This document shows positions 35,170 through 50,648 of a DNA stretch of 64,000 bases, piece by piece. A program made the translations under genes and the position numbers. The notes beneath the pieces are model-generated. The model had not been told where the DNA came from and made no database searches. It worked only from the letters and a program-made list of their open reading frames with translations. How positions within the stretch are numbered: position 1 is the first letter of the stretch; every line of letters begins with the position of its first letter. Origin of the DNA: Streptomyces syringium (GTDB lineage: Bacteria; Actinomycetota; Actinomycetes; Streptomycetales; Streptomycetaceae); contig NZ_JAGIOH010000001.1 of assembly GCF_017876625.1 (NCBI RefSeq), positions 6,345,501 to 6,409,500 of the forward strand, read 5' to 3'.

Positions 35170-36156
35170 TCAGCGACGACGTGCCTCCGGGTGGTGCAGA
35201 CACCAGCCTTCCCAGGCGGAGGTGACCATGGCGCGCACGTCGTGCGCGGGGCTCCAGCCGAGCTCCTTCGCGATCCGCTCGCCCGAGGCCACGACACGCG
35301 CCGGATCACCCGGACGGCGCGGCTCGACGACGGGCGCGGGCTCGGTGTAGCCGGTCACCGAGGCGATCAGATCGGCCATCTCCCGCACCGACACCCCCCG
35401 CCCGGTGCCGACGTTCAGCGTCAGATCGCCCGCGCCCGGCCGCTCGGCGAGCCGGCGGGCCGCGGCCAGATGGGCGGTGGCGAGGTCCTCGATGTGGATG
35501 TAGTCACGGACACACGTGCCGTCGGGGGTGTCGTAGTCGGCCCCGAAGATCCGGGGGCTCTCGCCCCGGGTGAGCCGGTCGAACATCATCGGAATGATGT
35601 TGTAGATCCCCGTGTCGGCGAGCTCCGGCTCGGCCGCGCCCGCGACGTTGAAGTACCGCAGACAGGCCGTGGAGATCCCGTGGGCCGCCCCGGTGGCCCG
35701 GACGAGCCACTCGCCCGCCAGCTTCGTCTCCCCGTACGGGTTCATCGGCAGACAGGGCGTCTCCTCCGTGACGAGGTCCACGTCCGGCATGCCGTAGACG
35801 GCCGCGGAGGAGGAGAAGACGAAACTGGCGACCTGCGCGTCGACCGCGGCCTCCAGCAGCCGCGTCAGGCCGTGCAGGTTCTCCCGGTAGTACAGCAGCG
35901 GCTTCTCGACGGACTCCCCGACCTGCTTCTTCGCCGCGAGGTGCACCACCCCCGTCACGTCCAGGTCCCCGAACGCCTGGTCCAGCGCCGCGCGGTCCAG
36001 GACCGACCCCCGGATCAGCGTGCACTCCTCCGGCAGCCGGGTCGCCACGCCGCTGGACAGATCGTCCAGCACGGCCACCCGCTCTCCGGCCTCCACCATC
36101 GCCCGCGCAACGTGCGCCCCGATATATCCGGCTCCGCCTGTGATCAGCCACGTCAT
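35170..36156 (-). CDS. galE: UDP-glucose 4-epimerase
   Basis: A 328-aa extended SDR enzyme interconverting UDP-glucose and UDP-galactose. NAD motif GGAGYIGAH (7-15), catalytic SSSAAVYG and Y-x3-K (NPYGETK), and the RYFNVAGA and YDTPDGTCVRDYIHIEDLA landmarks of GalE are all present, and the length is right. It is not in a gal operon. It is divergent from the glycerol-1-phosphate/ABC-exporter cluster, so its UDP-galactose may feed the glycosyltransferase there (inference). Other SDR epimerase specificities cannot be excluded. Confidence 0.93.
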   Translation of the reverse strand: MTWLITGGAGYIGAHVARAMVEAGERVAVLDDLSSGVATRLPEECTLIRGSVLDRAALDQAFGDLDVTGVVHLAAKKQVGESVEKPLLYYRENLHGLTRLLEAAVDAQVASFVFSSSAAVYGMPDVDLVTEETPCLPMNPYGETKLAGEWLVRATGAAHGISTACLRYFNVAGAAEPELADTGIYNIIPMMFDRLTRGESPRIFGADYDTPDGTCVRDYIHIEDLATAHLAAARRLAERPGAGDLTLNVGTGRGVSVREMADLIASVTGYTEPAPVVEPRRPGDPARVVASGERIAKELGWSPAHDVRAMVTSAWEGWCLHHPEARRR

Positions 36157-36462: not shown

Positions 36463-36561
36463 GTGCCGCACGCCGCCCCCGACGGGGCCCTGCCGCGCCA
36501 CACCGCTGCTCGGCCGCCCCCGCGGACGCGAAGAGCGGCCACGTCCGTTTCCAAGGAGTGA
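36463..36561 (+). CDS. Possible 32-aa leader peptide upstream of the DUF5941 gene
   Basis: GTG 36463 opens 32 codons (MPHAAPDGALPRHTAARPPP...) ending in a TGA at 36559-36561. The stop overlaps the AAGGAG ribosome-binding site (36553-36558) used by the next gene, whose likely CTG start is 7 bases further on. This geometry would allow ribosomes finishing the leader to restart on the main gene. A -10 element sits just upstream. The peptide is Pro/Arg/Ala-rich and has no recognised relative, so it may be chance. Confidence 0.3.
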   Translation: MPHAAPDGALPRHTAARPPPRTRRAATSVSKE

Positions 36562-36567
36562 GTTCGT

Positions 36568-38370
36568 CTGTCGACCGCCATCCTCACCGGTTTGCCGCCC
36601 GTCGGCTCCTCCCTCGAGGACGACCTGCGGTCCCTGGGCTTCGATGTGCGCGCGGCGGCCGACGCCGCCGGCACCGCGGCGGCGCTGGCCGCCGTCCCGG
36701 CGGCCGAGCGGGTCGCCCTCGTCGATGCCCGCTTCGTCGGCCACCTCCACGCCCTGCGTCTGGCCCTGACCGACCCCCGCTTCCCCGCGGCGGCGGTGGA
36801 GGGCGCGCTCACCGCGCAGCCCGAGGCGCGCGGCGCGCTCACCCGCGCGCTCGCCACGGTCACGGACGCGGAGCCGGGGGCGAACCTGCCCGACGCCCTC
36901 GCGCCCCGGCTGGAAGCCGACGGCGTCGGCGTGCACCGCCCCGACCTCGGGGTGCTCGTCGCGACCGTCCCCGCCGACGCCGACGTGCGTGCGAAGGCCG
37001 AAGGGGACGTCGCCGCGGTTGACGACGAGGCCGTACGGCTGCGCACCGCCGTGAAGTCCCGCGACGGGTTCTTCACCACCTACTGCGTCAGCCCGTACTC
37101 CCGCTACCTCGCCCGCTGGTGCGCCCGGCGCGGATTCACCCCCAATCAGGTGACGACCGCCTCACTGCTCACCGCGCTCATCGCCGCCGGCTGCGCGGCG
37201 ACCGGCACCCGGCCCGGCTTCGTCGCCGCCGGCGTGCTGCTGATCTTCTCGTTCGTGCTCGACTGCACCGACGGCCAGCTCGCCCGCTACTCCCTGCAGT
37301 ACTCCACGCTCGGCGCCTGGCTCGACGCGACCTTCGACCGCGCCAAGGAATACGCCTACTACGCGGGCCTCGCCATCGGCGCGGCCCACGGCGGCGGCAA
37401 CGACGACGTCTGGGCCCTCGCGCTCGGCGCCATGGTCCTGCAGACCTGCCGGCACGTCGTCGACTTCTCCTTCAACGAGGCGAACCACGACGCCACGGCC
37501 AATACCAGCCCCACCGCCGCCCTCTCCGACAAGCTCGACAGCGTCGGCTGGACGGTCTGGGCGCGCCGCATGATCGTGCTGCCCATCGGCGAGCGCTGGG
37601 CCCTGATCGCGGTCCTGACCGCGTTCACCACGCCCCGCACCGTCTTCTACGTGCTGCTCGCCGGCTGCGCGCTGGCCGCCTGCTACACCACGGCCGGCCG
37701 GGTGCTGCGCTCGCTGACCCGCAAGGCGCACCGCACGGACCGCGCGGCCCGGGCGCTGGCCGACCTCGCCGACTCCGGCCCGGTCGCCGAGCTCGCGAGC
37801 CGCACCGTGGGCACCACCTTCCCCCCCGGCGCCTACACGGCCCCCCTGTGGGCCCTGCTGGCCACCGCCTCGCTGTTCGTCGGCCCGCTCTTCGCGGGCA
37901 CCGCCGGCACCTGGCAGGCCGTCCTGCAGGCCGGGGTGTACGCCGTCTTCGCCGGCTGCGCCGTCGCCCGCCCCCTCAAGGGCCCCCTCGACTGGCTCGT
38001 ACCGCCGCTCTTCCGGGCGTCCGAATACGGGATCATCCTGCTCCTCGCCGCCAAGTCCGGCATCGACGGTGCCCTGCCCGCGGCTTTCGGCCTCGTGGCC
38101 GCGGTCGCCTACCATCACTACGACACGGTGTACCGCATCCGTGGCGGCAGTGGCGCGCCCCCGCACTGGCTGGTGCGGGCGATCGGCGGCCACGAAGGAC
38201 GCGTCCTGGCGGTCACGATCGCCGCCGCCCTGTGGCACAACCAAGGTTTCACCATCGCGCTGACGGTCCTCGCGGCCGCCCTCGCGCTCGCGGTGCTCAG
38301 CGAGAGCATCCGCTTCTGGGTGTCCTCCGGGGCCCCCGCAGTACACGACGAAACAGGAGAACCCGCATGA
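36568..38370 (+). CDS. DUF5941 / CDP-alcohol phosphatidyltransferase membrane protein
   Basis: A ~600-aa membrane enzyme. Residues ~1-160 form a soluble alpha/beta domain resembling the nucleotidyltransferase-like part of DUF5941 proteins (STAILTGLPPVGSSLEDDLRSLGFDV). Next comes a CDP-alcohol phosphatidyltransferase domain with the complete signature D-G-x2-A-R-x8-G-x3-D-x3-D (D235 to D257, DGQLARYSLQYSTLGAWLD then ATFD), and about ten hydrophobic helices. Such enzymes move a phospho-alcohol from a CDP-alcohol to an acceptor. The start is probably CTG 36568, 9 bases after AAGGAG; the next usable start (TTG 36592) has no ribosome-binding site. Its stop overlaps the next gene's start (ATGA). 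Confidence 0.8.
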   Translation: MSTAILTGLPPVGSSLEDDLRSLGFDVRAAADAAGTAAALAAVPAAERVALVDARFVGHLHALRLALTDPRFPAAAVEGALTAQPEARGALTRALATVTDAEPGANLPDALAPRLEADGVGVHRPDLGVLVATVPADADVRAKAEGDVAAVDDEAVRLRTAVKSRDGFFTTYCVSPYSRYLARWCARRGFTPNQVTTASLLTALIAAGCAATGTRPGFVAAGVLLIFSFVLDCTDGQLARYSLQYSTLGAWLDATFDRAKEYAYYAGLAIGAAHGGGNDDVWALALGAMVLQTCRHVVDFSFNEANHDATANTSPTAALSDKLDSVGWTVWARRMIVLPIGERWALIAVLTAFTTPRTVFYVLLAGCALAACYTTAGRVLRSLTRKAHRTDRAARALADLADSGPVAELASRTVGTTFPPGAYTAPLWALLATASLFVGPLFAGTAGTWQAVLQAGVYAVFAGCAVARPLKGPLDWLVPPLFRASEYGIILLLAAKSGIDGALPAAFGLVAAVAYHHYDTVYRIRGGSGAPPHWLVRAIGGHEGRVLAVTIAAALWHNQGFTIALTVLAAALALAVLSESIRFWVSSGAPAVHDETGEPA

Positions 38371-39119
38371 TCGGCCTCGTGCTGGCAGCCGGCGCTGGAC
38401 GGCGTCTGCGCCCCTACACCGACACCCTGCCCAAGGCTCTGGTGCCGGTCGGCCCCGAGGGGGAAGAGGAGTCGATCACCGTCCTCGACCTCACGCTCGG
38501 CAACTTCGCCGAGGTCGGCCTGACCGAGGTCGCGATCGTCGTCGGCTACCGCAAGGAGGCCGTGTACGCGCGCAAGGAGGCGCTGGAGGCGAAGTACAAC
38601 CTCAAGCTCACCCTGATCGACAACGACAAGGCCGAGGAGTGGAACAACGCCTACTCCCTGTGGTGCGCGCGTGACGTCCTGGGCCGCGGTGTGATCCTCG
38701 CCAACGGCGACACCGTCCACCCCGTCTCCGTCGAGAAGACCCTGCTCGCCGCCCGCGGCCAGGGCCAGAAGATCATCCTCGCCCTCGACACGGTGAAGAA
38801 GCTCGCCGACGAGGAGATGAAGGTCGTCGTGGACCCCGCCAAGGGCGTCCAGAAGATCACCAAGCTCATGGAGCCCGCCGAGGCCACCGGTGAGTACATC
38901 GGTGTCACCCTCATCGAGGCCGAGGCGGGCGCCGAGCTCGCCGCCGCGCTGAAGACCACCTTCGAGCGCGACCCGGACCTCTACTACGAGGACGGCTACC
39001 AGGAGCTCGTCAACGGCGGCTTCAAGATCGACATCGCGCCGATCGGCGACGTCAAGTGGGTCGAGATCGACAACCACGAGGACCTCGCCAAGGGCCGGGA
39101 GATCGCGTGCCAGTACTGA
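38367..39119 (+). CDS. Sugar/alditol-phosphate nucleotidyltransferase
   Basis: A 250-aa NTP transferase. The N-terminal signature LAAGAGRRLRPYTDTLPKALVPVG (6-29) binds NTP, and ILANGDTVHP holds the metal-binding Asp. Size and motifs resemble CTP-using enzymes such as phosphocholine or inositol-1-phosphate cytidylyltransferases more than hexose-1-phosphate enzymes with their longer C-termini. Next to a glycerol-1-phosphate dehydrogenase and two CDP-alcohol transferases, I infer that it makes a CDP-activated polyol, possibly CDP-sn-1-glycerol. ATG 38367 overlaps the preceding stop, and the next start lies inside its last codons, so translation is coupled. Confidence 0.82.
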   Translation: MIGLVLAAGAGRRLRPYTDTLPKALVPVGPEGEEESITVLDLTLGNFAEVGLTEVAIVVGYRKEAVYARKEALEAKYNLKLTLIDNDKAEEWNNAYSLWCARDVLGRGVILANGDTVHPVSVEKTLLAARGQGQKIILALDTVKKLADEEMKVVVDPAKGVQKITKLMEPAEATGEYIGVTLIEAEAGAELAAALKTTFERDPDLYYEDGYQELVNGGFKIDIAPIGDVKWVEIDNHEDLAKGREIACQY

Positions 39120-40168
39120 CGAGGCTCATCCCCTCGCCGGTCGTCGTCGACATCCGTGCCGGAGCGCTGGACGATCTGGCGAAGATCCTCGCCGATCAGC
39201 GGATCTCCAGCTCCGGCAAGCTGGCCATCGCCATCAGCGGCGGCTCCGGGGCGAAGCTGCGCGAGCGGCTCGCCCCGGCGCTGCCCGGCGCCTCCTGGTA
39301 CGAGGTCGGCGGCGGCACCCTCGACGACGCCATCAAGCTCGGCGACGCGATGAAGTCCGGGCGCTACGACGCGGTCGTGGGCCTCGGCGGCGGCAAGATC
39401 ATCGACTGCGCGAAGTACGCCGCGGCGCGGATCGGCCTGCCGCTGGTCGCCGTCGCGACGAACCTCTCGCACGACGGTCTCTGCTCGCCCGTCGCGACCC
39501 TCGACAACGACGCGGGCCGCGGCTCCTACGGTGTGCCGAACCCGATCGCCGTCGTGATCGACCTCGACGTCATCCGTGAGGCCCCGGTCCGCTTCGTGCG
39601 CTCCGGCATCGGCGACGCGATCTCCAACATCTCCGCCGTCGCGGACTGGGAGCTCGCCCACCGCGAGCGCGGCGAGGACATCGACGGCCTGGCCGCCGCC
39701 ATCGCCCGGCAGGCCGGCGAGGCCGTGCTCCGCCACCCCGGCGGCGTCGGCGACGACGGCTTCCTCCAGGTGCTCGCCGAGGGCCTCGTGCTCACCGGCA
39801 TCTCGATGTCGGTCGCGGGCGACAGCCGCCCGGCCTCCGGTGCCTGCCACGAGATCAACCACGCCTTCGACCTGCTCTTCCCCAAGCGCGCCGCCAGCCA
39901 CGGCGAGCAGTGCGGCCTCGGCGCGGCCTTCGCCATGTACCTGCGCGGTGCCCGCGAGGAGTCCGCGCTGATGGTCCAGGTGCTGCGCAGGCACGGGCTG
40001 CCGGTCACACCGCAGGAGATCGGCTTCACCACGGAGGAGTTCGTCCAGGCCGTCGAGTACGCCCCGCAGACCCGCCCCGGGCGCTACACGATCCTGGAAC
40101 ACCTCGACCTCTCCACCGACCAGATCAGGGACGCATACGCCGACTATGCAAAAACCGTCAGTCGCTGA
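39107..40168 (+). CDS. sn-glycerol-1-phosphate dehydrogenase-like (EgsA/AraM family)
   Basis: A 353-aa member of the iron/zinc alcohol dehydrogenase fold. NAD-binding GGGKIIDCAKYAA (94-106) and the family motifs TNLSHDGLCSPVA (118-130), GIGDAISN with D170, RPASGACHEINHAFD with H248, and HGEQCG with H265 match glycerol-1-phosphate dehydrogenase and its three metal ligands. The enzyme reduces dihydroxyacetone phosphate to sn-glycerol-1-phosphate, the enantiomer of archaeal lipids, also made by Bacillus AraM. GTG 39107 is chosen (GGGAG 5 bases upstream) and overlaps the previous gene by 13 bases. 2-deoxy-scyllo-inosose synthase-like relatives fit worse. A key part of the seven-gene cluster. Confidence 0.85.
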   Translation: MPVLTRLIPSPVVVDIRAGALDDLAKILADQRISSSGKLAIAISGGSGAKLRERLAPALPGASWYEVGGGTLDDAIKLGDAMKSGRYDAVVGLGGGKIIDCAKYAAARIGLPLVAVATNLSHDGLCSPVATLDNDAGRGSYGVPNPIAVVIDLDVIREAPVRFVRSGIGDAISNISAVADWELAHRERGEDIDGLAAAIARQAGEAVLRHPGGVGDDGFLQVLAEGLVLTGISMSVAGDSRPASGACHEINHAFDLLFPKRAASHGEQCGLGAAFAMYLRGAREESALMVQVLRRHGLPVTPQEIGFTTEEFVQAVEYAPQTRPGRYTILEHLDLSTDQIRDAYADYAKTVSR

Positions 40169-40925
40169 ACTCCGCCCGGTCGTCCACCCCGCAGGGGTCA
40201 AGGACCGGCGCAGCGGTGAGCACTGGGCCGGTCGCCTGTACATGCGAGAGATCTCGCTGCGCTGCGACCGGCATCTGGTGAACACCCGGATCACGCCCAA
40301 CCAGCTCACCTACCTGATGACCGTCTTCGGCGTCCTCGCCGCTCCGGCCCTGCTGGTGCCGGGGATCGCGGGCGCCGTGCTCGGCGTGCTGATGGTCCAG
40401 CTCTATCTGCTGCTGGACTGCGTCGACGGCGAGGTCGCCCGCTGGAAGAAGCAGTTCTCCCTCGGCGGCGTGTACCTGGACCGGGTCGGCGCCTATCTGT
40501 GCGACGCCGCGGTGCTGGTCGGCTTCGGTCTGCGCGCCGCGGACCTGTGGGGCTCCGGCCGGATCGACTGGCTGTGGGCCTTCCTCGGGACCCTCGCCGC
40601 GCTCGGCGCCATCCTGATCAAGGCCGAGACCGACCTCGTCGGCGTCGCCCGGCACCAGGGCGGGCTCCCGCCGGTCAAGGAGGCGGCGTCCGAGCCGCGG
40701 TCGTCCGGCATGGCACTGGCCCGCAAGGCCGCCGCCGCGCTGAAGTTCCACCGCCTCATCCTCGGGATCGAGGCGTCGCTGCTGATCCTCTTCCTCGCGG
40801 TCCTGGACACGGTCAGGGGCGACCTGTTCTTCTCGCGCCTCGGCGTGGCCGTCCTCGCGGGCATCGCCCTCGTGCAGACGCTGCTCCACCTCGTGTCCAT
40901 CCTCGCTTCGAGCAGGCTCAAGTGA
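40146..40925 (+). CDS. Second CDP-alcohol phosphatidyltransferase-like membrane protein
   Basis: A 259-aa membrane protein with about six hydrophobic helices. The family signature is present but incomplete: D94-G-E-V-A-R, eight residues, G108-V-Y-L-D112-R-V-G-A116. The fourth Asp, normally the catalytic base, is Ala. Either a nearby acid (for example in LCDAA) substitutes, or the protein is a non-catalytic or altered partner of the DUF5941 enzyme. Its ATG lies 23 bases inside the dehydrogenase gene, and its stop overlaps the next start (GTGA). A role in moving a glycerol-phosphate-type group at the membrane is inferred from context. Confidence 0.82.
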   Translation: MQKPSVAELRPVVHPAGVKDRRSGEHWAGRLYMREISLRCDRHLVNTRITPNQLTYLMTVFGVLAAPALLVPGIAGAVLGVLMVQLYLLLDCVDGEVARWKKQFSLGGVYLDRVGAYLCDAAVLVGFGLRAADLWGSGRIDWLWAFLGTLAALGAILIKAETDLVGVARHQGGLPPVKEAASEPRSSGMALARKAAAALKFHRLILGIEASLLILFLAVLDTVRGDLFFSRLGVAVLAGIALVQTLLHLVSILASSRLK

Positions 40926-41815
40926 GTGCCCCGACGAGGCTCGGCGCGGTCGTCCTGACCATGGGCAACCGCCCCGAGGAACTGCGCGCGCTGCTCGACT
41001 CCGTCGCCAAGCAGCAGGGCGAGGCCATCGAGGTCGTCGTCGTCGGCAACGGCTCGCCGCTGCCGGAGCTGAACGTGCCGGGGCTGACCGTACGGACCGT
41101 CGAGCTGCCCGAGAACGTGGGCATCCCGGCGGGCCGCAACGTCGGCATCGAGGCGTTCGGACCCGGCGGCCGCGAGGTCGACGTGCTGCTCTTCCTCGAC
41201 GACGACGGCCACCTGCCCGGCCAGGACACCGCCGAGCTGTGCCGTGAGGCGTTCGCCGCCGATCCGAAGCTGGGCATCATCAGCTTCCGGATCGCCGACC
41301 CCGACACCGGGGTCACCCAGCGCCGCCACGTACCGCGGCTGCGGGCGGCCGACCCGATGCGGTCCTCGCGGGTGACGACCTTCCTCGGCGGCGCCAACGC
41401 GGTCCGCACGAAGGTCTTCGCCGAGGTCGGCGGGCTGCCGGACGAATTCTTCTACGCGCACGAGGAGACCGACCTCGCGTGGCGGGCCCTGAACGCGGGC
41501 TGGATGATCGACTACCGGTCGGACATGGTGCTGCACCACCCGACCACGGCCCCCAGCCGGCACGCGGTCTACCACCGCATGGTGGCCCGCAACCGGGTCT
41601 GGCTGGCCCGGCGCAATCTCCCGGCCCCCCTCGTCCCGGTCTACCTCGGGGTGTGGCTGCTGCTGACGCTGGCCCGGCGGCCGTCGCCGCCCGCGCTGCG
41701 CGCCTGGCTGGGCGGCTTCAAGGAGGGGTGGACGACGCCCTGCGGTCCACGGCGCCCCATGAAGTGGCGTACCGTTTGGCGCCTGACCCGACTGGGTCGC
41801 CCTCCCGTGATCTGA
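40922..41815 (+). CDS. GT2 family glycosyltransferase
   Basis: A 297-aa GT-A fold glycosyltransferase. N-terminal LGAVVLTMGNRPEELRALLDSV, nucleotide/metal motif LLFLDDDGHLP (~89-99), and the acceptor-side HEETDLAWRALNAGW (~179-193) are typical of rhamnosyl/galactosyl-type GT2 enzymes. A C-terminal hydrophobic/basic helix (PVYLGVWLLLTLARR) may tether it to the membrane. GTG 40922 overlaps the preceding stop. It probably adds sugar to the lipid-linked product of the cluster; the donor could be UDP-galactose from the divergent galE (inference). Confidence 0.88.
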   Translation: MSAPTRLGAVVLTMGNRPEELRALLDSVAKQQGEAIEVVVVGNGSPLPELNVPGLTVRTVELPENVGIPAGRNVGIEAFGPGGREVDVLLFLDDDGHLPGQDTAELCREAFAADPKLGIISFRIADPDTGVTQRRHVPRLRAADPMRSSRVTTFLGGANAVRTKVFAEVGGLPDEFFYAHEETDLAWRALNAGWMIDYRSDMVLHHPTTAPSRHAVYHRMVARNRVWLARRNLPAPLVPVYLGVWLLLTLARRPSPPALRAWLGGFKEGWTTPCGPRRPMKWRTVWRLTRLGRPPVI

Positions 41816-41884
41816 CAAGCTCGTGTCTGAGAGCATCGGGCGCTGCCCGGGGCACCGCCCCGGCAGCGCACCTTGAGGACGAAA

Positions 41885-42829
41885 GTGTCAACTGTGAGCG
41901 AGACAACGCACGACAGTGCGGTCGCCCTGAGTGCCCCACCGTCACCCGACGACGGACTCCCCGCCGCCGAGCTGGCCAAGAAGTACGGCCTGGCGGTCAG
42001 CGGTGCCCGGCCCGGGCTGGGGGAGTACGCGCGGCAGCTGTGGGACCGGCGTCACTTCATCGTGGCGTTCTCCCGGGCGAAGCTGACGGCGCAGTACAGC
42101 AAGGCGAAGCTCGGACAGGTCTGGCAGGTGGCCACGCCCCTGCTCAACGCCCTGGTGTACTTCTTCATCTTCGGCGTGCTGATGGGTGCCCACGGGGACA
42201 TGGGGACGGACACCTACATCCCCTTCCTGGTCACGGGTGTCTTCGTCTTCACCTTCACCCAGACCTCGGCGATGGCCGGCGTCCGGTCGATCGCGGGAAA
42301 CCTGGGCCTGGTACGTGCCCTGCACTTCCCCCGGGCGGCACTGCCGATCTCCTTCGCGCTGCAACAGCTCCAGCAGCTGCTCTTCTCCATGAGCGTGCTG
42401 TTCCTCATCCTGATCGGCTTCGGGCACTTCCCGAAGCCGTCGTGGGCGCTGATCATCCCGACGCTGGTGCTGCAGTTCGTCTTCAACACCGGTCTCGCGC
42501 TGGTCATGGCCCGCGCGGGCAGCAAGACCCCCGACCTGGCGCAGCTGCTGCCCTTCATCACCCGGACGTGGATGTACGCGTCCGGCGTGATGTACAGCAT
42601 GACGACCCAGCTGGAGAAGGCCCACGCCCCGGCGTGGGTGATCGACGTCCTCGGGGCCAACCCCGCGGCCGTCTACATCGACCTCATGCGCTTCGCGCTG
42701 ATCGACGGCTACGGCGCGGACAAGCTGCCGCCGCACGTCTGGGCGCTGGCGCTCGGCTGGGCACTGCTGCTCGGTCTCGGGGGCTTCGTGTACTTCTGGA
42801 AGGCTGAGGAGCAGTACGGCCGTGGCTGA
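41885..42829 (+). CDS. ABC-2 type exporter permease (Wzm/TagG-like)
   Basis: A 314-aa permease with an N-terminal cytosolic helix (YARQLWDRRHFIVAFSRAKLTAQYSKAKLG, the gate/interface helix) and six hydrophobic segments (~85-107, 117-140, 158-185, 193-213, 225-245, 280-305). This matches the O-antigen/teichoic-acid exporter family. With the ATPase that follows it should flip a lipid-linked polymer or glycolipid. GTG 41885 is chosen, with GAGGACG 6 bases upstream. The frame is also open from TTG 41873. It overlaps the ATPase gene by 8 bases. Confidence 0.9.
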   Translation: MSTVSETTHDSAVALSAPPSPDDGLPAAELAKKYGLAVSGARPGLGEYARQLWDRRHFIVAFSRAKLTAQYSKAKLGQVWQVATPLLNALVYFFIFGVLMGAHGDMGTDTYIPFLVTGVFVFTFTQTSAMAGVRSIAGNLGLVRALHFPRAALPISFALQQLQQLLFSMSVLFLILIGFGHFPKPSWALIIPTLVLQFVFNTGLALVMARAGSKTPDLAQLLPFITRTWMYASGVMYSMTTQLEKAHAPAWVIDVLGANPAAVYIDLMRFALIDGYGADKLPPHVWALALGWALLLGLGGFVYFWKAEEQYGRG

Positions 42830-43619
42830 TCAGAACAGTGCCGACAAGGCGGCGGCGTCGAGCCGCGTCCCCACCGTGATCGCGGACGACGTCCACATCG
42901 TCTACCGCGTCTACGGGGGCAGCACCGGCCGGGGCAGCGCGACCGCCGCCCTGAACCGGATCATCAAGCGCAAGCCGGACGCCGGTGTCCGTGAGGTGCA
43001 CGCCGTCAAGGGCGTCAGCTTCACCGCCTACCGGGGCCAGGCCATCGGCCTCATCGGCTCCAACGGCTCCGGCAAGTCCACCCTGCTCAAGGCCATCGCC
43101 GGGCTGCTGCCCGCCGAGCGGGGCAAGGTCTACACCGACGGCCAGCCCTCGCTGCTGGGTGTCAACGCGGCGTTGATGAACGACCTCACGGGCGAGAAGA
43201 ACGTGATGCTCGGCGGGCTGGCGATGGGCATGACCCGGGAGCAGATCCGCGAGCGCTACCAGTCCATCGTCGACTTCTCGGGCATCAACGAGAAGGGCGA
43301 CTTCATCACGCTGCCCATGCGGACGTACTCCTCCGGCATGGCGGCCCGGCTGCGCTTCTCCATCGCCGCGGCCAAGGACCACGACGTGCTGATGATCGAC
43401 GAGGCGCTGGCCACCGGCGACCGTTCCTTCCAGAAGCGCTCCGAGGCCCGCATCCGCGAGCTGCGCAAGGAAGCCGGCACCGTCTTCCTCGTCAGCCACA
43501 ACAACAAGTCCATCCGCGACACCTGTGACCGGGTGCTGTGGCTGGAGCGCGGCGAGCTGCTGATGGACGGGCCGACCGACGAGGTCGTCCGTGCGTACGA
43601 GAAGGAGACGGCCCGCTAG
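42822..43619 (+). CDS. ABC exporter ATPase (Wzt/TagH-like, short form)
   Basis: A 265-aa ATPase. Walker A GSNGSGKST, an SSGMAARL signature (the variant typical of polysaccharide and teichoic acid exporters), Walker B DVLMIDEAL and H-loop SHNN are present. The N-terminal extension VPTVIADDVHIVYRVYGG is usual in TagH/Wzt proteins. It stops after the nucleotide-binding domain: the C-terminal carbohydrate-binding domain of long Wzt is absent, so chain length or cap recognition is not read here. GTG 42822 has GAGGAG upstream. Last gene of the cluster, followed by a strong terminator. Confidence 0.92.
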   Translation: MADQNSADKAAASSRVPTVIADDVHIVYRVYGGSTGRGSATAALNRIIKRKPDAGVREVHAVKGVSFTAYRGQAIGLIGSNGSGKSTLLKAIAGLLPAERGKVYTDGQPSLLGVNAALMNDLTGEKNVMLGGLAMGMTREQIRERYQSIVDFSGINEKGDFITLPMRTYSSGMAARLRFSIAAAKDHDVLMIDEALATGDRSFQKRSEARIRELRKEAGTVFLVSHNNKSIRDTCDRVLWLERGELLMDGPTDEVVRAYEKETAR

Positions 43620-43942
43620 CCGTCACCGGTCAAGTCCGCCCGCCGCGCTCCGGCGGGCGGACTTGACCGACCTGTAACGATCAACTCGCTTATTGACAGG
43701 GTTGATTCACTCCCTGCGTGGCATTGTATGGATCAAGCACATACCCCGGCGCGCGTCGGACATTTGTGCGGCGTACGCTGTACCGTGCTGATTTGTGCCG
43801 AAGCGTGACGATACCCGGGTATCCCCGGCCTCGGCGGGGGCGGGACGGGGGCGGGACAGAGGGGTCAAGGGTGGGGGGACCTGCGGCGTGTCCGAAATAG
43901 GATGTTCTGGGTTTGCAGTGTAGAACGGGAGATGTGACGGCA
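43620..43942. other. Intergenic region between export cluster and hopanoid cluster
   Basis: After the terminator at 43628-43668 this stretch has a TTGACA (43693-43698) without a clear partner, and a relatively AT-rich patch (43680-43800). It then carries TAGGAT (43898-43903), the best -10 candidate for the hopanoid operon, giving a start near 43910 and a ~33-base leader to the small frame at 43943. The GC-rich tract GGCCTCGGCGGGGGCGGGAC (~43830) could pause transcription. No gene. Confidence 0.4.
43628..43668 (+). terminator. Perfect 17-bp hairpin terminator after the ABC exporter
   Basis: GGTCAAGTCCGCCCGCC (43628-43644) and its exact complement (43652-43668) flank a 7-base loop, starting 9 bases after the ATPase stop. 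It closes the seven-gene unit and separates it from the hopanoid genes. Confidence 0.85.
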
Positions 43943-44008
43943 ATGGCTACGGGAACTCTCCAGCTCCGCGGCGCGCACGCCGTCCCCGGTCCTGGCAGCC
44001 CGCGATGA
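43943..44008 (+). CDS. Possible 21-aa leader peptide coupled to hpnC
   Basis: ATG 43943 opens 21 codons (MATGTLQLRGAHAVPGPGSP R) ending at TGA 44006-44008, which overlaps the hpnC start as ATGA. GGGAG (43927-43931) lies 11 bases upstream, whereas hpnC itself has no ribosome-binding site. The natural reading is that ribosomes translate the small frame and restart on hpnC. No Cys/Trp/Leu run suggests amino-acid attenuation. Its sequence is unfamiliar, and conservation in other Streptomyces would decide whether it is real. Confidence 0.45.
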   Translation: MATGTLQLRGAHAVPGPGSPR

Positions 44009-44904
44009 CCGCAGGGACGGACGCGCACGCGCGCGCCGTGCTCGACAAGGCCGCGCACGAGAACTTCCCCGTGGCTCCCTTCTTCGTGCCCCGCTCCTGG
44101 CGCGCCGACCTCATGGCCATCTACGGCTACGCCCGCCTCGTCGACGACATCGGCGACGGTGACCTGGCCCCCGGCGGCCGGGACGCCGAGCTGCTCGGCC
44201 TCGACCGCGAGCAGGCCGACGACCGGCTCGCCATGCTCGACGCCTTCGAGGCCGACCTGGGCCGGGTCTTCGACCGCACCGGCACCGGCCCGCGCCACCC
44301 GCTGCTGCTCCGCCTCCGGCCGACCGTCCGCCGGTGCGGCCTGACCCCCGAGCCCTTCCTCGGACTGATCGAGGCCAACCGCCAGGACCAGCGGGTGCGC
44401 CGCTACGCCACCTACGAGGAACTGCTCGCCTACTGCGAGCTGTCCGCCAACCCCGTCGGCCGTCTCGTCCTCGGCATCACCGGCACACTGAGCCCCGAGC
44501 GGATCCGCCGCTCGGACGCGATCTGCACGGCCCTGCAGATCATCGAACATCTCCAGGACGTCGCCGAGGACCTCGCGCGCGACCGCATCTACCTGCCCGC
44601 CGAGGACATGAAACGCTTCCGCGTGAGCGGGAGCGATCTCGCCCTTGCGACCAGTGGCGCATCGGTGCGCGCACTGGTCGCGTACGAGGCGGAACGCGCC
44701 GGGGACCTGCTGAATGAAGGCACCCCCCTGGTGGGTAGCGTCCACGGCAGGCTGAAGCTGTTGCTCGCGGGGTTCGTGGGCGGCGGGAAGGCCGCACTCA
44801 AGGCGGTCGCCGCCGCGGGCCACGACGTACTCCCCGGACCGCCCAAGCCCACCAAGCTCAGCCTGCTGCGCGAGGTGGGGGCGACACTGCGAAGAGAGGG
44901 GTGA
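44005..44904 (+). CDS. hpnC: Hydroxysqualene synthase HpnC
   Basis: A 299-aa trans-isoprenyl-diphosphate-synthase-like enzyme that converts presqualene diphosphate to hydroxysqualene. The HpnC hallmark HENFPVAPFFVP (18-29) and both Asp motifs, YARLVDDIGD (42-51) and LQDVAEDLARDRIYLP, are present. It is the first gene of the HpnCDE route that replaces squalene synthase. Start ATG 44005 overlaps the small leader frame, and its stop overlaps hpnD (GTGA). The 1:1 pairing with HpnD next door makes phytoene synthase unlikely. Confidence 0.93.
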   Translation: MTAGTDAHARAVLDKAAHENFPVAPFFVPRSWRADLMAIYGYARLVDDIGDGDLAPGGRDAELLGLDREQADDRLAMLDAFEADLGRVFDRTGTGPRHPLLLRLRPTVRRCGLTPEPFLGLIEANRQDQRVRRYATYEELLAYCELSANPVGRLVLGITGTLSPERIRRSDAICTALQIIEHLQDVAEDLARDRIYLPAEDMKRFRVSGSDLALATSGASVRALVAYEAERAGDLLNEGTPLVGSVHGRLKLLLAGFVGGGKAALKAVAAAGHDVLPGPPKPTKLSLLREVGATLRREG

Positions 44905-45851
44905 GCGGGACCGTGAACGGAACGCCGACCGCGTCCGCGCCGGTGCTCGCCGCGTACAGCTACTGCGAGGCCGTCACCGCACAGCAGGCAGGTAACTTCA
45001 GCTACGGCATCAGACTGCTCCCGACCGCGAAGCGCCGGGCCATGTCCGCGTTGTACGCCTTCTCGCGGCGGGTCGACGACATCGGCGACGGCACTTTGGA
45101 CGCGGCGTCCAAGACGCTGCGGCTGGAGGAGACGCGCGCGCTGCTCGACCGGATCCGGGAGGGCACCGTCGACGAGGACGACACCGACCCGGTGGCCGTC
45201 GCGCTGACGCATGCCGCGCGCCGCTTCCCCATCCCCCTCGGGGGGCTCGACGAGCTCATCGACGGCGTCCAGATGGACGTGCGCGGTGAGACCTACGAGA
45301 CCTGGGACGACCTCGCCCTGTACTGCCGCTGCGTCGCGGGCGCCATCGGCAGGCTCTCGCTCGGCGTGTTCGGCACCGTCCCCGGCGCCCGGGACACCGA
45401 GCGCGCCTCGGAGTACGCCGATACGCTCGGCCTCGCCCTGCAGCTCACCAACATCCTGCGCGACGTCCGTGAGGACGCGGCCAACGGCCGTACGTACCTC
45501 CCCGCCGAGGACCTCGCCAAGTTCGGCTGCTCCGCGGGCTTCCACTCCGCCACGCCCCCGGCCGGCGCCGACTTCACCGGCCTCGTGCAGTACGAGGTCC
45601 GGCGCGCCCGCGCGCTGTTCGCCGAGGGCATGAAGCTGCTGCCCATGCTGGACCGGCGCAGCGGCGCCTGTGTCGCCGCCATGTCCGGCATCTACCGCAG
45701 ACTCCTGGACCGCATCGCCCAGGACCCCCGGGCCGTGCTGCGTGGCCGGGTCTCCCTGCCCGGCCACGAGAAGGCCTATGTCGCCGTGCGCGGCCTGTCC
45801 GGCTTCGACGCCCGCAGCGTCCACCGGCAGACCGTCAAGGGGCGCGCTTGA
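44901..45851 (+). CDS. hpnD: Presqualene diphosphate synthase HpnD
   Basis: A 316-aa squalene/phytoene-synthase-family enzyme condensing two farnesyl diphosphates to presqualene diphosphate. The N-terminal SYCEAVTAQQAGNFSYGIRLLP, first Asp motif FSRRVDDIGDG (54-64) and second NILRDVREDAANGRTYLP are intact. GTG 44901 overlaps the hpnC stop; GTG 44912 is a weaker alternative. Its own stop overlaps (TGATG) a 28-codon frame that bridges to hpnE. Confidence 0.93.
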   Translation: MSGTVNGTPTASAPVLAAYSYCEAVTAQQAGNFSYGIRLLPTAKRRAMSALYAFSRRVDDIGDGTLDAASKTLRLEETRALLDRIREGTVDEDDTDPVAVALTHAARRFPIPLGGLDELIDGVQMDVRGETYETWDDLALYCRCVAGAIGRLSLGVFGTVPGARDTERASEYADTLGLALQLTNILRDVREDAANGRTYLPAEDLAKFGCSAGFHSATPPAGADFTGLVQYEVRRARALFAEGMKLLPMLDRRSGACVAAMSGIYRRLLDRIAQDPRAVLRGRVSLPGHEKAYVAVRGLSGFDARSVHRQTVKGRA

Positions 45852-45937
45852 TGGCCCGAGCTCACACCGAGGACCGGTGTGCAACCCTCCGCCCCGCGGA
45901 CGCGTCCCTGACAGCAGCCGAGGGAGAGGGCGCATGA
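45851..45937 (+). CDS. Possible 28-aa micro-protein bridging hpnD and hpnE
   Basis: ATG 45851 shares bases with the hpnD stop (TGATG), and 28 codons later the TGA at 45935-45937 overlaps the hpnE ATG (ATGA). The peptide reads MARAHTEDRCATLRPADASL then TAAEGEGA. AAGGGG lies 8 bases upstream. Both junctions have the form used throughout this operon for coupled translation, so the frame may serve to carry ribosomes across an 82-base gap that also holds a 7-bp hairpin (45863-45881). Chance cannot be excluded. Confidence 0.45.
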   Translation: MARAHTEDRCATLRPADASLTAAEGEGA

Positions 45938-47382
45938 CAGCACGGACGACGACCCGGCCCGACGGGCACCGCGCGCAGGAGGCAGGCCGCCCCGTCGGGG
46001 CGGCCGCGGTGGTGATCGGGGGCGGCCTCGCCGGCACCACGGCGGCGCTCGAACTCGCCGACGCGGGGCTGCGCGTGACCCTGATCGAGGGGCGGCCCCG
46101 GCTGGGCGGGCTGGCCTTCTCCTTCCGCCGCGGCGAGCTGACCGTCGACAACGGCCAGCACGTCTACTTGCGCTGCTGCACCGCCTATCAGTGGTTCCTC
46201 GACCGGGTCGACGCCCGGGCGCTCGCCCCGCTGCAGAGCCGGCTGGACGTCCCCGTCCTCGACGTCGGCCACCCCTCGGGGCGGCCGGTCCTGGGCCGGC
46301 TGCGCCGCACCGCGCTGCCCGTGCCGCTGCACCTGGCGGCCAGCCTCGCCGGCTACCCGCACCTCTCGCTCGCCGAGCGGGCCAAGGTCGGCCGCGCCGC
46401 GCTGGCGCTGCGCGCCCTCGACCCGATGGACCCCGCACTGGACGGGGAGGACTTCGCGGGCTGGCTGCACCGCCACGGCCAGTCCTCCCGCGCGGTCGAG
46501 GCGCTGTGGGACCTCGTCGGCGTCGCCACCCTCAATGCCACCGCCGACCAGGCCTCCCTGGGCCTGGCCGCCATGGTCTTCAAGACCGGGCTGCTCTCCG
46601 AGCCCGGCGCCGCCGACATCGGCTGGGCGCACGTCCCGCTGGGCGAGCTGCACGACGTCCGCGCCCGCGCGGCCCTCGACAAGGCGGGCGTCCGCACCTG
46701 CCTGCGCACCCGCGCCACCGGTCTCACCCGGGGCGACGACGGCATCTGGCACGTGGACACCGAGTCCGGGCCGGGTGCGGCCGAGCGGCTGGACGCCGAC
46801 ACCGTGGTGCTCGCCGTCCCGCAGCGCGAGACCCACGACCTGCTGCCCGAGGGCGCCCTGGACGACGCCGACCGGCTGCTCGGCATCGGCACCGCCCCGA
46901 TCCTCAACGTGCACGTCGTCTACGACCGCAAGGTCCTGCGACAGCCGTTCTTCGCGGCCCTCGGCTCCCCCGTGCAGTGGGTCTTCGACCGCACCGACTC
47001 CTCCGGCCTCGCCGGCGGCGGCCAGTACCTGGCCGTCTCCCAGTCGGCCGCGCAGGACGAGATCGACCTGCCGGTCGCCGAGCTGCGCGACCGCTATCTT
47101 CCCGAGCTGGAGCGGCTGCTGCCCGCGGCACGCGGCGCCGGTATCCGGGACTTCTTCGTGACCCGGGAGCGGACAGCGACGTTCGCCCCCACCCCGGGCG
47201 TCGGCCGGCTCCGGCCGCACGCCCCCACGAACGCGCCCGGCCTGTACCTGGCCGGCGCGTGGACCGCCACCGGCTGGCCCGCGACCATGGAGGGCGCGGT
47301 GCGCAGCGGTCTGTCCGCCGCCGGCGCGGCCCTCTCCGAGCTCGGGCGTCCGCATCAGAGCCCCCTCCGGGAGCCGGCATGA
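45934..47382 (+). CDS. hpnE: Hydroxysqualene dehydroxylase HpnE
   Basis: A 482-aa FAD-dependent enzyme that reduces hydroxysqualene to squalene. FAD motif VVIGGGLAGTTAALELADAG (~27-46) with EGRPRLGGLAFSF, the central WDLVGVATLNATADQASLGLA segment and the C-terminal GLYLAGAWTATGWPATMEGAVRSG follow the phytoene-desaturase/HpnE pattern. GAGGGAGAGG lies just upstream of ATG 45934. Its stop overlaps the next start (ATGA). With HpnC and HpnD it completes squalene synthesis. Confidence 0.93.
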   Translation: MTARTTTRPDGHRAQEAGRPVGAAAVVIGGGLAGTTAALELADAGLRVTLIEGRPRLGGLAFSFRRGELTVDNGQHVYLRCCTAYQWFLDRVDARALAPLQSRLDVPVLDVGHPSGRPVLGRLRRTALPVPLHLAASLAGYPHLSLAERAKVGRAALALRALDPMDPALDGEDFAGWLHRHGQSSRAVEALWDLVGVATLNATADQASLGLAAMVFKTGLLSEPGAADIGWAHVPLGELHDVRARAALDKAGVRTCLRTRATGLTRGDDGIWHVDTESGPGAAERLDADTVVLAVPQRETHDLLPEGALDDADRLLGIGTAPILNVHVVYDRKVLRQPFFAALGSPVQWVFDRTDSSGLAGGGQYLAVSQSAAQDEIDLPVAELRDRYLPELERLLPAARGAGIRDFFVTRERTATFAPTPGVGRLRPHAPTNAPGLYLAGAWTATGWPATMEGAVRSGLSAAGAALSELGRPHQSPLREPA

Positions 47383-48518
47383 ACGAGCGAGCCACCCAAG
47401 GCGTGCACCCCCGGCACGGGGGACGCATGAGCATGAACACCAGAGGAGAGACCGTGACTTCGGCGATCCCAGCTGTCGACACCGCAGGCGTCACCGCCCT
47501 GCTGGAGCGCGGACGGACGCTTGCCACGCCGGTGCTGCGTGCCGCCGTGGCCCGGCTCGCGCCGCCCATGGACACCGTCGCCGCCTACCACTTCGGCTGG
47601 ATCGACGCCGAGGGCCGCCCCTCGCACGGCGACAGCGGCAAGGCGATCCGCCCCGCCCTCGCCCTGCTCTCGGCCGAGGCGGCCGGGGTCGCCCCCGAGG
47701 TGGGCATCCCCGGCGCGGTGGCCGTGGAGCTCGTGCACAACTTCTCGCTGCTCCACGACGACCTGATGGACGGCGACGAGCAGCGCCGCCACCGCGACAC
47801 CGTGTGGAAGGTGCACGGCCCGGCCCAGGCCATCCTGGTCGGCGACGCCCTCTTCGCCCTCGCCAACGAGGTCCTGCTGGAGCTCGGCACGGTCGAGGCC
47901 GGCCGCGCCACCCGGCGGCTGACCACCGCGACCCGCAAGCTCATCGACGGCCAGGCCCAGGACATCTCCTACGAGCACCGCGAGCGCGTGACCGTCGAGG
48001 AATGCCTGGAGATGGAGGGAAACAAGACGGGCGCCCTGCTCGCCTGCGCCGTCTCCATCGGCGCGGTCCTCGGCGGCGCCGACGACCGCACGGCCGACAC
48101 CCTGGAGGCCTACGGCTACCACCTCGGCCTCGCCTTCCAGGCCGTCGACGACCTGCTCGGCATCTGGGGCGACCCGGAGGCCACCGGCAAGCAGACCTGG
48201 AGCGATCTGCGCCAGCGCAAGAAGTCCCTGCCCGTCGTCGCCGCGCTCGCCGCCGGCGGCCCCGCCTCCGAGCGGCTCGCCCGGATCCTCGCCGCCGACG
48301 CCAAGCTCAGCGACGCGGCGGCCGCCGACTTCGACGAGGAAGAGTTCGCCAGCCGCGCGGCGCTGATCGAGGAGGCGGGCGGCCGGGAGTGGACCTCCCA
48401 GGAGGCCCGCCGCCAGCACACCACCGCGATCGAGGCGCTGGACGGCGTCGACATGCCCGCAGAGGTCCGAGCGCAGCTCGTCGCGCTCGCCGACTTCGTC
48501 GTCGTACGAAAGAGATGA
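47379..48518 (+). CDS. Polyprenyl (probably farnesyl) diphosphate synthase
   Basis: Up to 379 aa. The first Asp-rich motif LLHDDLMDGDEQRR (~125-138) and second AVDDLLGIWGD define a trans-prenyltransferase making FPP or a longer chain for HpnD. The residues before the first Asp motif (VELVHNFSLLHDD) lack bulky Tyr/Phe at the -4/-5 chain-stop positions, so product length is open. Two starts are possible: ATG 47379 overlapping the hpnE stop (GGGAG upstream), or GTG 47454 directly after AGAGGAGAG and closer to the first conserved residues. The protein core is the same. Confidence 0.9.
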   Translation: MNERATQGVHPRHGGRMSMNTRGETVTSAIPAVDTAGVTALLERGRTLATPVLRAAVARLAPPMDTVAAYHFGWIDAEGRPSHGDSGKAIRPALALLSAEAAGVAPEVGIPGAVAVELVHNFSLLHDDLMDGDEQRRHRDTVWKVHGPAQAILVGDALFALANEVLLELGTVEAGRATRRLTTATRKLIDGQAQDISYEHRERVTVEECLEMEGNKTGALLACAVSIGAVLGGADDRTADTLEAYGYHLGLAFQAVDDLLGIWGDPEATGKQTWSDLRQRKKSLPVVAALAAGGPASERLARILAADAKLSDAAAADFDEEEFASRAALIEEAGGREWTSQEARRQHTTAIEALDGVDMPAEVRAQLVALADFVVVRKR

Positions 48519-48556
48519 TTCCCATTCACCCGATCTAGACCTCGCAGTCGCCGGCA

Positions 48557-48578
48557 GGCGCCCCTCGCTCGGGGCGCC
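48557..48578 (+). terminator. Hairpin between polyprenyl synthase and squalene-hopene cyclase genes
   Basis: GGCGCCCC (48557-48564) pairs perfectly with GGGGCGCC (48571-48578) over a TCGCTC loop, 38 bases after the synthase stop and 64 before the shc ATG. A partial terminator, attenuator or RNA-processing signal is possible; no T-run. Confidence 0.4.
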
Positions 48579-48641
48579 GCCGACGGAACCCCCAAGTACG
48601 GCAGTACGGCAGAGAAGAAACTCACTGCAAAAGGGGAAGCC

Positions 48642-50648
48642 ATGACAGCGACGACCGACGGAGGCACCGGGGCGGGCTCGCCCCCTGCGGCCGCGGCCAC
48701 CGAGAGCACCACCGTCCTGCCCACCGCCGACCCGGCCGGGCAGGAGCAGCCGCACGCGGCCGCGGAGCGGGCCACCGCCCGCGCGACCCGGCACCTGCTC
48801 GCCCGGCAGGACGCGGCGGGATGGTGGAAGGGCGACCTGGAGACCAACGTCACCATGGACGCCGAAGACCTGATGCTCCGCCAGTTCCTCGGCATCCAGG
48901 ACGAAAAAACCACCCGGGCGGCGGCCCTCTTCATCCGCACCGAGCAGCGCCCGGACGGCACCTGGTCCACCTTCCACGGCGGGCCCGCCGAACTCTCCGC
49001 CACCATCGAGGCCTATGTCGCGCTGCGGCTCGCCGGGGACGCCCCCGAAGCCCCGCACATGGCCGCCGCCGCGCTCTGGATCCGCGAGCAGGGCGGCATC
49101 GCCGCCGCCCGGGTCTTCACCCGGATCTGGCTGGCCCTCTTCGGCTGGTGGAAGTGGGACGACCTCCCCGAACTGCCGCCCGAAATCATGTACTTGCCGA
49201 AGTGGTTCCCGCTCAACATCTACGACTTCGGCTGCTGGGCCCGGCAGACCATCGTGCCCCTGACCGTCGTCTCCGCGAAGCGCCCGGTACGGCCCGCGCC
49301 GTTCCCCCTCGACGAGCTGCACACCGACCCGCGGCGCCCCAACCCCCCGCGCCCGGCGGCCCCGGCCGCGAGCTGGGACGGCCTCTTCCAGCGCCTGGAC
49401 AAGGCACTGCACGTCTACCGCAGGTTCGCGCTCGCCCCGCTGCGCCGCACCGCGCTCAGAGCGGCCGAGCGCTGGATCATCGAGCGGCAGGAGAACGACG
49501 GCTGCTGGGGCGGCATCCAGCCCCCCGCCGTCTACTCCGTCATCGCCCTGCACCTCCTCGGCTACGACCTCGGGCACCCGGTGCTGCGTGCCGGGCTCGA
49601 GTCGCTGGACCGTTTCGCCGTCTGGCGCGAGGACGGCGCACGGATGATCGAGGCGTGCCAGTCGCCCGTCTGGGACACCTGCCTCGCCGTCATCGCGCTC
49701 GCCGACGCGGGCGTCGCCGCCGACCACCCGGCCCTCGTCAAGGCCGCCGACTGGATGCTGGACGAGCAGATCACCCGGCCCGGCGACTGGACCGTGCGCC
49801 GGCCCGAGCTGCCCCCGGGCGGCTGGGCCTTCGAGTTCCACAACGACAACTACCCCGACATCGACGACACCGCCGAGGTCGTCCTCGCCCTCAAGCGGGT
49901 ACGCCACCCCAATCCCGGGCGCGTCGAGACGGCCATCCGGCGGGCCACCCGCTGGAACCTGGGCATGCAGTCCAGGAACGGCGCCTGGGGGGCCTTCGAC
50001 GCCGACAACACCAGCCCCTTCCCCAACCGGCTGCCGTTCTGCGACTTCGGCGAGGTCATCGACCCGCCGTCCGCCGACGTCACCGCCCATGTGGTCGAGA
50101 TGCTGGCGGTCCTCGGCAGGCAGCACGACCCGCGCACCCGGCGCGGCATCGACTGGCTGCTCGCCGAGCAGGAGCCGTCCGGCGCCTGGTTCGGCCGCTG
50201 GGGCACCAACTACGTCTACGGCACCGGGTCGGTGCTGCCCGCCCTCGTCGCCGCCGGGCTGCCCGTCTCGTACCCGGCCGTCCGCCGGGCCGTGGCCTGG
50301 CTGGAGAGCGTGCAGAACGCCGACGGCGGCTGGGGCGAGGACCAGCGCTCCTACCGCGACCCCGAGTGGATCGGGCGCGGCGCGACCACCCCCTCGCAGA
50401 CCGCCTGGGCGCTGCTGGCGCTGCTGGCCGCGGGGGAGCGGGAGAGCAAGGCCGTCGAGCGCGGCGTGGCCTGGCTGGTGGACCACCAGCGCCCGGACGG
50501 CTCCTGGGACGAGCCGCACTTCACCGGGACCGGCTTCCCCTGGGACTTCTCCATCAACTACCACCTGTACCGGCAGGTCTTCCCCCTCACGGCCCTCGGC
50601 CGCTATCTGCACGGCGAGCCCTTCGCCCCCGACGGGCGGGAGGGCTGA
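48642..50648 (+). CDS. shc: Squalene-hopene cyclase
   Basis: A 668-aa membrane-associated cyclase converting squalene to hopene/diplopterol, the defining hopanoid step. The catalytic acid motif is D406-I-D-D-T-A (YPDIDDTAEVV). Several QW repeats are visible (QDAAGWWKGD, QENDGCWGGI, QNADGGWGED, QRPDGSWDE). Length matches bacterial Shc (~630-680). The first ~40 residues are a low-complexity Ala/Thr/Gly extension. AAAGGGGAAG lies just before ATG 48642. Its stop overlaps hpnG (TGATG). Also known as hpnF. Confidence 0.96.
   Translation: MTATTDGGTGAGSPPAAAATESTTVLPTADPAGQEQPHAAAERATARATRHLLARQDAAGWWKGDLETNVTMDAEDLMLRQFLGIQDEKTTRAAALFIRTEQRPDGTWSTFHGGPAELSATIEAYVALRLAGDAPEAPHMAAAALWIREQGGIAAARVFTRIWLALFGWWKWDDLPELPPEIMYLPKWFPLNIYDFGCWARQTIVPLTVVSAKRPVRPAPFPLDELHTDPRRPNPPRPAAPAASWDGLFQRLDKALHVYRRFALAPLRRTALRAAERWIIERQENDGCWGGIQPPAVYSVIALHLLGYDLGHPVLRAGLESLDRFAVWREDGARMIEACQSPVWDTCLAVIALADAGVAADHPALVKAADWMLDEQITRPGDWTVRRPELPPGGWAFEFHNDNYPDIDDTAEVVLALKRVRHPNPGRVETAIRRATRWNLGMQSRNGAWGAFDADNTSPFPNRLPFCDFGEVIDPPSADVTAHVVEMLAVLGRQHDPRTRRGIDWLLAEQEPSGAWFGRWGTNYVYGTGSVLPALVAAGLPVSYPAVRRAVAWLESVQNADGGWGEDQRSYRDPEWIGRGATTPSQTAWALLALLAAGERESKAVERGVAWLVDHQRPDGSWDEPHFTGTGFPWDFSINYHLYRQVFPLTALGRYLHGEPFAPDGREG

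Follow-up and report, generated by a model that had tools for sequence, protein, structure and literature searches.

A unit of seven genes, called A to G here, lies on the plus strand of a 64-kb stretch of the Streptomyces syringium genome (the window, meaning the whole stretch that was analysed), where it spans positions 36568 to 43619 with all genes in the same direction. The unit encodes two CDP-alcohol phosphotransferase-like proteins (A and D), a nucleotidyltransferase (B), an EgsA/AraM-type dehydrogenase (C), a GT2 glycosyltransferase (E) and a Wzm/Wzt-type ABC exporter (F and G), families that an earlier note on this DNA had named for all seven genes and that Pfam and NCBI profiles confirm. 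The unit is real and widely conserved. On balance, we favor the view that its product is a teichoic-acid-like envelope molecule containing glycerol phosphate, made from the archaeal enantiomer of CDP-glycerol and exported by the unit itself, a predicted function that would make it a variant of teichoic-acid-type synthesis and not a new kind of system.

The first enzyme of the proposed route would be C (39107 to 40168; Pfam Fe-ADH_2), which is predicted to act as an sn-glycerol-1-phosphate dehydrogenase (G1PDH) that converts dihydroxyacetone phosphate (DHAP) to sn-glycerol-1-phosphate (G1P). Its best NCBI profile was that of G1PDH (NCBIfam PRK00843), with 246 bits vs 91 bits for glycerol dehydrogenase, and comparison with solved structures gave 153 bits for archaeal G1PDH and 67 bits for glycerol dehydrogenase; the structure 3ce9, which was deposited as 'glycerol dehydrogenase', scored 151 bits. 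The metal and NAD motifs of C are intact, as the earlier note had observed: D170, H248 and H265, which we take to be the metal ligands, and GGG 94-96 align with 4rgq and are invariant or nearly so in 13 relatives.

B (38367 to 39119; Pfam NTP_transferase) appears to be a COG1213/LicC-IPCT-type cytidylyltransferase. LicC was its best solved relative by sequence, and a structural model of B (pLDDT 94) returned LicC, inositol-phosphate cytidylyltransferase (IMPCT) and PntC at the top of the Foldseek matches, with sugar nucleotidyltransferases close behind. The Z scores of the model were 28.9 for PntC, 26.5 for IMPCT and 25.6 for LicC, and sugar nucleotidyltransferases also reached 26. R13, K23 and D115 of B correspond to R16, K26 and D112 of the T. 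maritima enzyme, the catalytic residues of IMPCT (PMC12275187), and are invariant in 15 sequences. The fold decides neither base nor substrate, and the activity of a CTP:sn-glycerol-1-phosphate cytidylyltransferase is a prediction.

Gene context ties the two enzymes together. When B and C were searched separately in each of 297 genomes sampled at the class level, B was found in 72 genomes and C in 72 (leaving out one weak match, in G446), with 71 genomes common to both, and the two one-sided genomes (G280 and G268) are each cut by a contig end. B adjoins C in 72 of the 75 copies of C, 63 of them with an identical 10-bp overlap between the matches. Since this pairing is about the strongest functional link that gene context provides, the product of C should be the substrate of B. 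C is present in all 28 genomes of this sample that belong to the window's genus. The earlier note had made its reading depend on a conserved co-occurrence of the genes, and such co-occurrence was found: among 80 Streptomyces-type loci fetched (63 with full flanks, and one of the close relatives labelled Streptosporangium), the order A to G was kept in 62 of the 63 complete Streptomyces loci, which is more than chance. B, C, D and E together with A-like genes and the exporter also occur in several families outside Streptomyces, and E lies next to D in most relatives. Plasmid records gave few matches to the unit. The closest named relative of the EgsA-type protein, at 99%, is from Streptomyces netropsis (L079).

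The link to teichoic acids comes from the distribution of TagF and TagD. We counted a PF04464 match with E < 1e-40 as a strong TagF, and set the TagD threshold, chosen in this analysis, at 100 bits or more. A strong TagF was present in 67 of 72 C-bearing genomes vs 39 of 225 genomes without C, and in 27 of 29 genera with C vs 20 of 85 without. TagD at or above the threshold was found in none of the 72 C-bearing genomes and in 13 of the 39 genomes that have TagF without C. The p values of about 2e-32 (TagF, genomes), 2e-11 (TagF, genera) and 5e-7 (TagD) all ignore relatedness. The window's own genome has a single TagF (G000:C1:2992569-2993651, E 2.1e-92), 3.4 Mb from the unit and with none near the unit itself, and its best TagD match reached just E 1.1e-6, too weak to be counted for that pathway. 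At other loci the genes are neighbors: L066 has the same-strand order B-C-TagG-TagH-TagF close to a GDPD gene and LCP ligases, L052 has the full gene set plus TagF, and several loci are flanked by LCP ligase and GDPD genes.

Some Streptomyces carry a second copy of C, inserted beside an rne-like gene (RNase_E_G) and rplU and accompanied by B in two of three cases (L064:8801-10599, L058:8752-10532 and L057:9493-10548). TagF lies within about 10 kb of the copies in L057 and L058, and no obvious TagF was seen among the open reading frames of 20 kb for the copy in L064. At L051:7244-9346, genes for a GlfT2-type galactofuranosyltransferase and for a Wzm/Wzt pair share the locus of B-C, which hints at a galactan decorated with glycerol phosphate.

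A (36568 to 38370) combines a degenerate cytidylyltransferase-like domain (residues about 1-150), a CDP-alcohol phosphotransferase core (about 165-385; Pfam CDP-OH_P_transf) and a DUF5941 membrane domain (391-600). Its signature DxxDGxxAR..GxxxDxxxD is intact, and the fourth aspartate (D4) was kept in 88 of 88 relatives scanned. By sequence, the best solved relative of both A (E 4e-8) and D (E 1.6e-11; gene at 40146 to 40925, Pfam CDP-OH_P_transf) was AF2299, an archaeal enzyme whose donor is CDP-glycerol (PMC4634129). In a model of A (pLDDT 86), residues 1-150 resemble IspD (Z about 13), the nucleotidyltransferase signature present in B being lost from this domain, and the two domains are arranged as in AF2299/IPCT-DIPPS (Z 17 and 16). 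CPT1/CEPT1 gave the longest match, with Z about 20 over about 316 residues. Because this match spans residues 69-600, DUF5941 may correspond to the extra C-terminal helices of these lipid-acceptor enzymes, a lead given by one whole-model alignment. In one actinobacterial family (L050:11258-11896, L044:11281-11925 and L041:2566-3210), DUF5941 is a gene of its own immediately upstream of B, so that it may act as a separate subunit.

In the pathway that we propose, C would reduce DHAP to G1P, and B would use CTP to convert G1P to CDP-1-glycerol, replacing the TagD route from glycerol-3-phosphate. A, as a multi-spanning CDP-alcohol transferase, would pass the glycerol-1-phosphate group on to a lipid or glycolipid acceptor in the membrane, and D, without the usual catalytic aspartate, would probably be the partner of A or an unconventional transferase. 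A sugar would be added by E (40922 to 41815, with a GTG start at 40922; Pfam Glycos_transf_2), and the product would be exported by F and G. F (41873 to 42829; Pfam ABC2_membrane) is a Wzm/TagG-type permease that matches a galactan-export permease profile and starts at TTG 41873 or at a GTG a few codons downstream; G (42822 to 43619; Pfam ABC_tran) is a Wzt/TagH-type ATPase whose best named profile is TagH, with 178 bits, and the second-best match within its own genome reaches just 70 bits. The shared CDP-glycerol pool would also feed TagF-type polymerases, whose genes lie away from the unit in Streptomyces and next to B-C in other genera. We infer every substrate, enantiomer, acceptor and polymer of this pathway from protein families and gene context. 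The earlier note had already drawn a route from G1P made by C through a CDP derivative made by B to membrane transferases and Wzm/Wzt export, and this route is now supported in part, by the B-C pairing, the co-occurrence with TagF, the absence of TagD and the match of A and D to AF2299.

A wider version of the proposal, against which we lean slightly, is that in actinobacteria with the unit a natural CDP-1-glycerol pool replaces TagD, and that their teichoic, or lipoteichoic, acids are built in the cytoplasm from the archaeal enantiomer, with the CPT/CEPT-like A priming the lipid acceptor and an ABC transporter exporting the product. The glycerol-1-phosphate configuration is that of the glycerol head group in phosphatidylglycerol and of the units that make up firmicute lipoteichoic acid (LTA). 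From a CDP-1-glycerol donor, it would therefore arise directly in the cytoplasm, with no need for LtaS. In stereochemical terms, CDP-1-glycerol and diacylglycerol would yield the ordinary head-group configuration of phosphatidylglycerol, and the polymers would share the configuration of firmicute LTA.

Several observations weigh against synthesis from CDP-1-glycerol by this unit. C falls under the NCBIfam equivalog cut-off for G1PDH (246 vs 413 bits), a cut-off passed by just 3 of 14 control genomes, which included four archaea. The related cytidylyltransferase CpgD made no product from glycerol-1-phosphate (PMC12275187). The signature of D lacks the catalytic D4, which is replaced by Ala in the window and in most Streptomyces and by His in most others, and is Ala or His in all relatives; the family assignment of D in the earlier note thus stands, with a signature short of its fourth aspartate. 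Among the sequences scanned, His was found in 18 of 19 outside Streptomyces and in 15 of 73 within it. D4 is the proposed catalytic base, and the D4N mutation nearly abolishes the activity of a PIP synthase with binding retained (PMC4634129). Because D4 is lost in D and the D4N enzyme is nearly inactive, we see D as an unusual enzyme or as acting together with A, and it is probably inactive as a conventional transferase; the occurrence of both His and Ala at D4 within a single genus suggests a non-catalytic role.

The associations with TagF and TagD are phylogenetically clumped, most C genomes coming from two families. One complete Streptomyces genome (G425) contains the B-C pair without any TagF, and in 26 genomes with TagF both C and a good TagD are missing. 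Of these 26, G280 is explained by its contig end and G331 is suspect because of low completeness, and the remaining genomes use something else, which was not found here. Thus, supplying TagF can be neither the sole role of the unit nor a rule. Since G425 lacks TagF, A and D must give the unit a TagF-free role; since L051 and L066 have B-C and the exporter with no A or D found in the stretch examined, it is likely that a CDP-alcohol serves both A/D and TagF. Furthermore, the unit is universal in the sampled Streptomyces, while the presence of LTA is reported to vary between species of the same genus (PMC3196553).

Other fates of G1P have to be considered. In an archaeal-type ether lipid pathway, G1P would be prenylated as in the B. 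subtilis AraM/PcrB route and the CDP-alcohol transferases would add head groups. C is indeed an EgsA/AraM relative, the unit adjoins isoprenoid (hopanoid) genes in Streptomyces, and a survey lists Streptomyces among the genera in which some genomes have orthologs of all three core archaeal lipid genes (PMC6431249). However, the GGGPS/PcrB family was found in 0 of 40 C-bearing genomes, with positive controls detected, and the ether lipid was rejected as the main fate of G1P on this result. The near-perfect B-C coupling would be needless for such a route, which also leaves the exporter and the GT2 enzyme unexplained, and we regard it as very improbable. The sequence match of A and D to AF2299, the best among solved structures, would also fit an intracellular or secreted phosphodiester solute, like the glycerophosphoinositol that Archaeoglobus makes from CDP-glycerol and inositol phosphate with an AF2299-like enzyme. 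But the unit has a conserved GT2 enzyme and a polysaccharide-type exporter and no inositol-phosphate synthase, and given also the context of TagF, LCP and GDPD, there is very little to be expected of this explanation.

From the seven genes alone, it is quite possible that the product is a single-unit glycolipid instead of a polymer: A and D would attach one G1P to a hopanoid or phospholipid, E would add one sugar, and F and G would flip the resulting glycerophosphoglycolipid. The proximity of hpnC in 61 of 63 Streptomyces loci, the alignment of the A model with cholinephosphotransferases that act on diacylglycerol, and G425 with its B-C and no TagF all agree with this. Yet a squalene-hopene cyclase above the family cut-off is absent in 26 of 33 tested C-bearing genomes, three Streptomyces included, so that a hopanoid acceptor is not general, and the TagF, LCP ligase and GDPD neighbors in other genera favor polymers; on all the evidence, we consider the glycolipid unlikely, if a serious candidate. 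A hopanoid-specific function was rejected, as the link is positional and seen in Streptomyces only, and most C-bearing genomes outside have no hopene cyclase above the cut-off. Chemically, the least excluded of the rivals, and a possible one, is that B uses another phosphate, such as phosphocholine, phosphoglycerate or that of a polyol, and C another ketone phosphate, the molecule then not being glycerol-based. LicC, IMPCT and CpgD share the fold of B and use choline, inositol and glycerate phosphates, and C is under the G1PDH cut-off, but C is far nearer to G1PDH than to other dehydrogenases in both the profile and the structure comparisons, B-C track TagF and exclude TagD, and A and D match a CDP-glycerol enzyme. 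We therefore think a substrate other than glycerol phosphate improbable.

A teichoic-acid-like molecule made from CDP-1-glycerol would resemble several known systems without being identical to any. The wall teichoic acid pathway of Bacillus and Staphylococcus (TagD, TagB, TagF, TagGH, LCP) shares the inferred CDP-glycerol donor, the co-occurrence with TagF, the TagGH-type exporter and, in relatives, the LCP neighbors. In contrast to that pathway, EgsA and a LicC-type cytidylyltransferase here replace TagD, the opposite glycerol enantiomer is predicted, and nothing there corresponds to the CDP-alcohol transferases A and D. A resembles AF2299/IPCT-DIPPS of Archaeoglobus in joining a cytidylyltransferase-like domain to a CDP-alcohol transferase, but its N-terminal domain is degenerate, B is a separate and active-looking enzyme, A has the extra DUF5941 membrane domain, and the unit includes a GT2 enzyme and an exporter. 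Like the AraM-PcrB system of Bacillus subtilis, the unit places an EgsA/AraM-type dehydrogenase in a bacterium; unlike it, the C-bearing genomes tested lack PcrB, and the predicted fate of G1P is CDP activation and not prenylation. In the ceramide diphosphoglycerate pathway of Caulobacter, CpgD is likewise a nucleotidyltransferase nearest to IMPCT that activates a three-carbon unit with CDP on the way to an envelope lipid, but its substrate is phosphoglycerate (PMC12275187).

A 2026 synteny paper associates a tagG/tagH/araM/crtB region of Streptomyces with teichoic acid biosynthesis (PMC13118837), and by its listed genes this region is the same neighborhood as the unit. The portion of that paper drawn on here gives no mechanism, no analysis of TagF or TagD and no distribution outside Streptomyces. 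A 2021 paper considered CDP-1-glycerol likely to be absent in bacteria. In the literature searched, with subscription journals mostly outside it, no paper was found that connects EgsA with CDP-glycerol in actinobacteria, nor any functional report under the S. coelicolor locus tags taken to be those of the unit, and a search for the absolute glycerol configuration of teichoic acids from actinomycetes gave nothing useful; the statement of the earlier note that no characterised product is known from such a gene set still holds within that literature. The earlier note lacked the hpnC adjacency, the TagF link, the probable inactivity of D and the 2026 assignment to teichoic acids.

If the proposal is correct, the unit would represent a new bacterial route to teichoic-acid-like polymers, CDP-1-glycerol would be made by a large part of the actinobacteria, and a precursor of the archaeal enantiomer would enter bacterial envelopes. 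S. hygroscopicus has been shown to contain poly(glycerol phosphate) lipoteichoic acid with LtaS missing (PMC3196553). The proposal would explain lipoteichoic acid in actinobacteria without LtaS, and would make the unsolved LtaS-free synthesis in Streptomyces (PMC3196553) testable via one gene cluster. Bacterial EgsA homologs, so far discussed mainly in debates on the lipid divide, would gain a function as well.

The earlier note had placed the cluster at 36463-43619. Its gene set and its end stand, but a start of A at 36463 is impossible because of an in-frame TGA at 36559-36561. A probably starts at CTG 36568, with AAGGAG upstream, or alternatively at TTG 36592; several relatives of A begin TTG-TCG-ACC at the position matching CTG 36568. 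The arrangement on one strand with mostly overlapping ends, also described before, is borne out by overlaps (stops counted) of 4 bp for A/B, 13 bp for B/C, 23 bp for C/D, 4 bp for D/E and 8 bp for F/G, with E/F as the sole non-overlapping junction (a gap of about 57 bp). After G, an inverted repeat on the plus strand (43627 to 43669; arms 43627-43645 and 43651-43669, with the 5-nt loop CGCTC) likely marks the transcription end of the unit before hpnC. The repeat is perfect, as had been stated of the terminator, with arms of 19 bp and not 17 bp, and has no T-run.

Upstream, galE (35170 to 36156, minus strand) is divergent as the earlier note had it and scores 316 bits for TIGR01179, above the cut-off of 262. 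It is a loose partner, present upstream in 44 of the 63 complete loci, and possibly supplies UDP-galactose to the unit. Hopanoid genes follow directly downstream, beginning with hpnC at 44005 (TIGR03464, 318 bits), about 390 bp past G; this adjacency is almost fixed in Streptomyces, and none was seen in the other genera examined. Positions 44005-50648 of the window hold hpnC, hpnD, an hpnE-like gene, a prenyl synthase and a hopene cyclase, a set for hopanoid biosynthesis, and the same genome has a further divergent hopene-cyclase-like gene (G000:C1:411880-413820) that scores 254 bits, under the cut-off.

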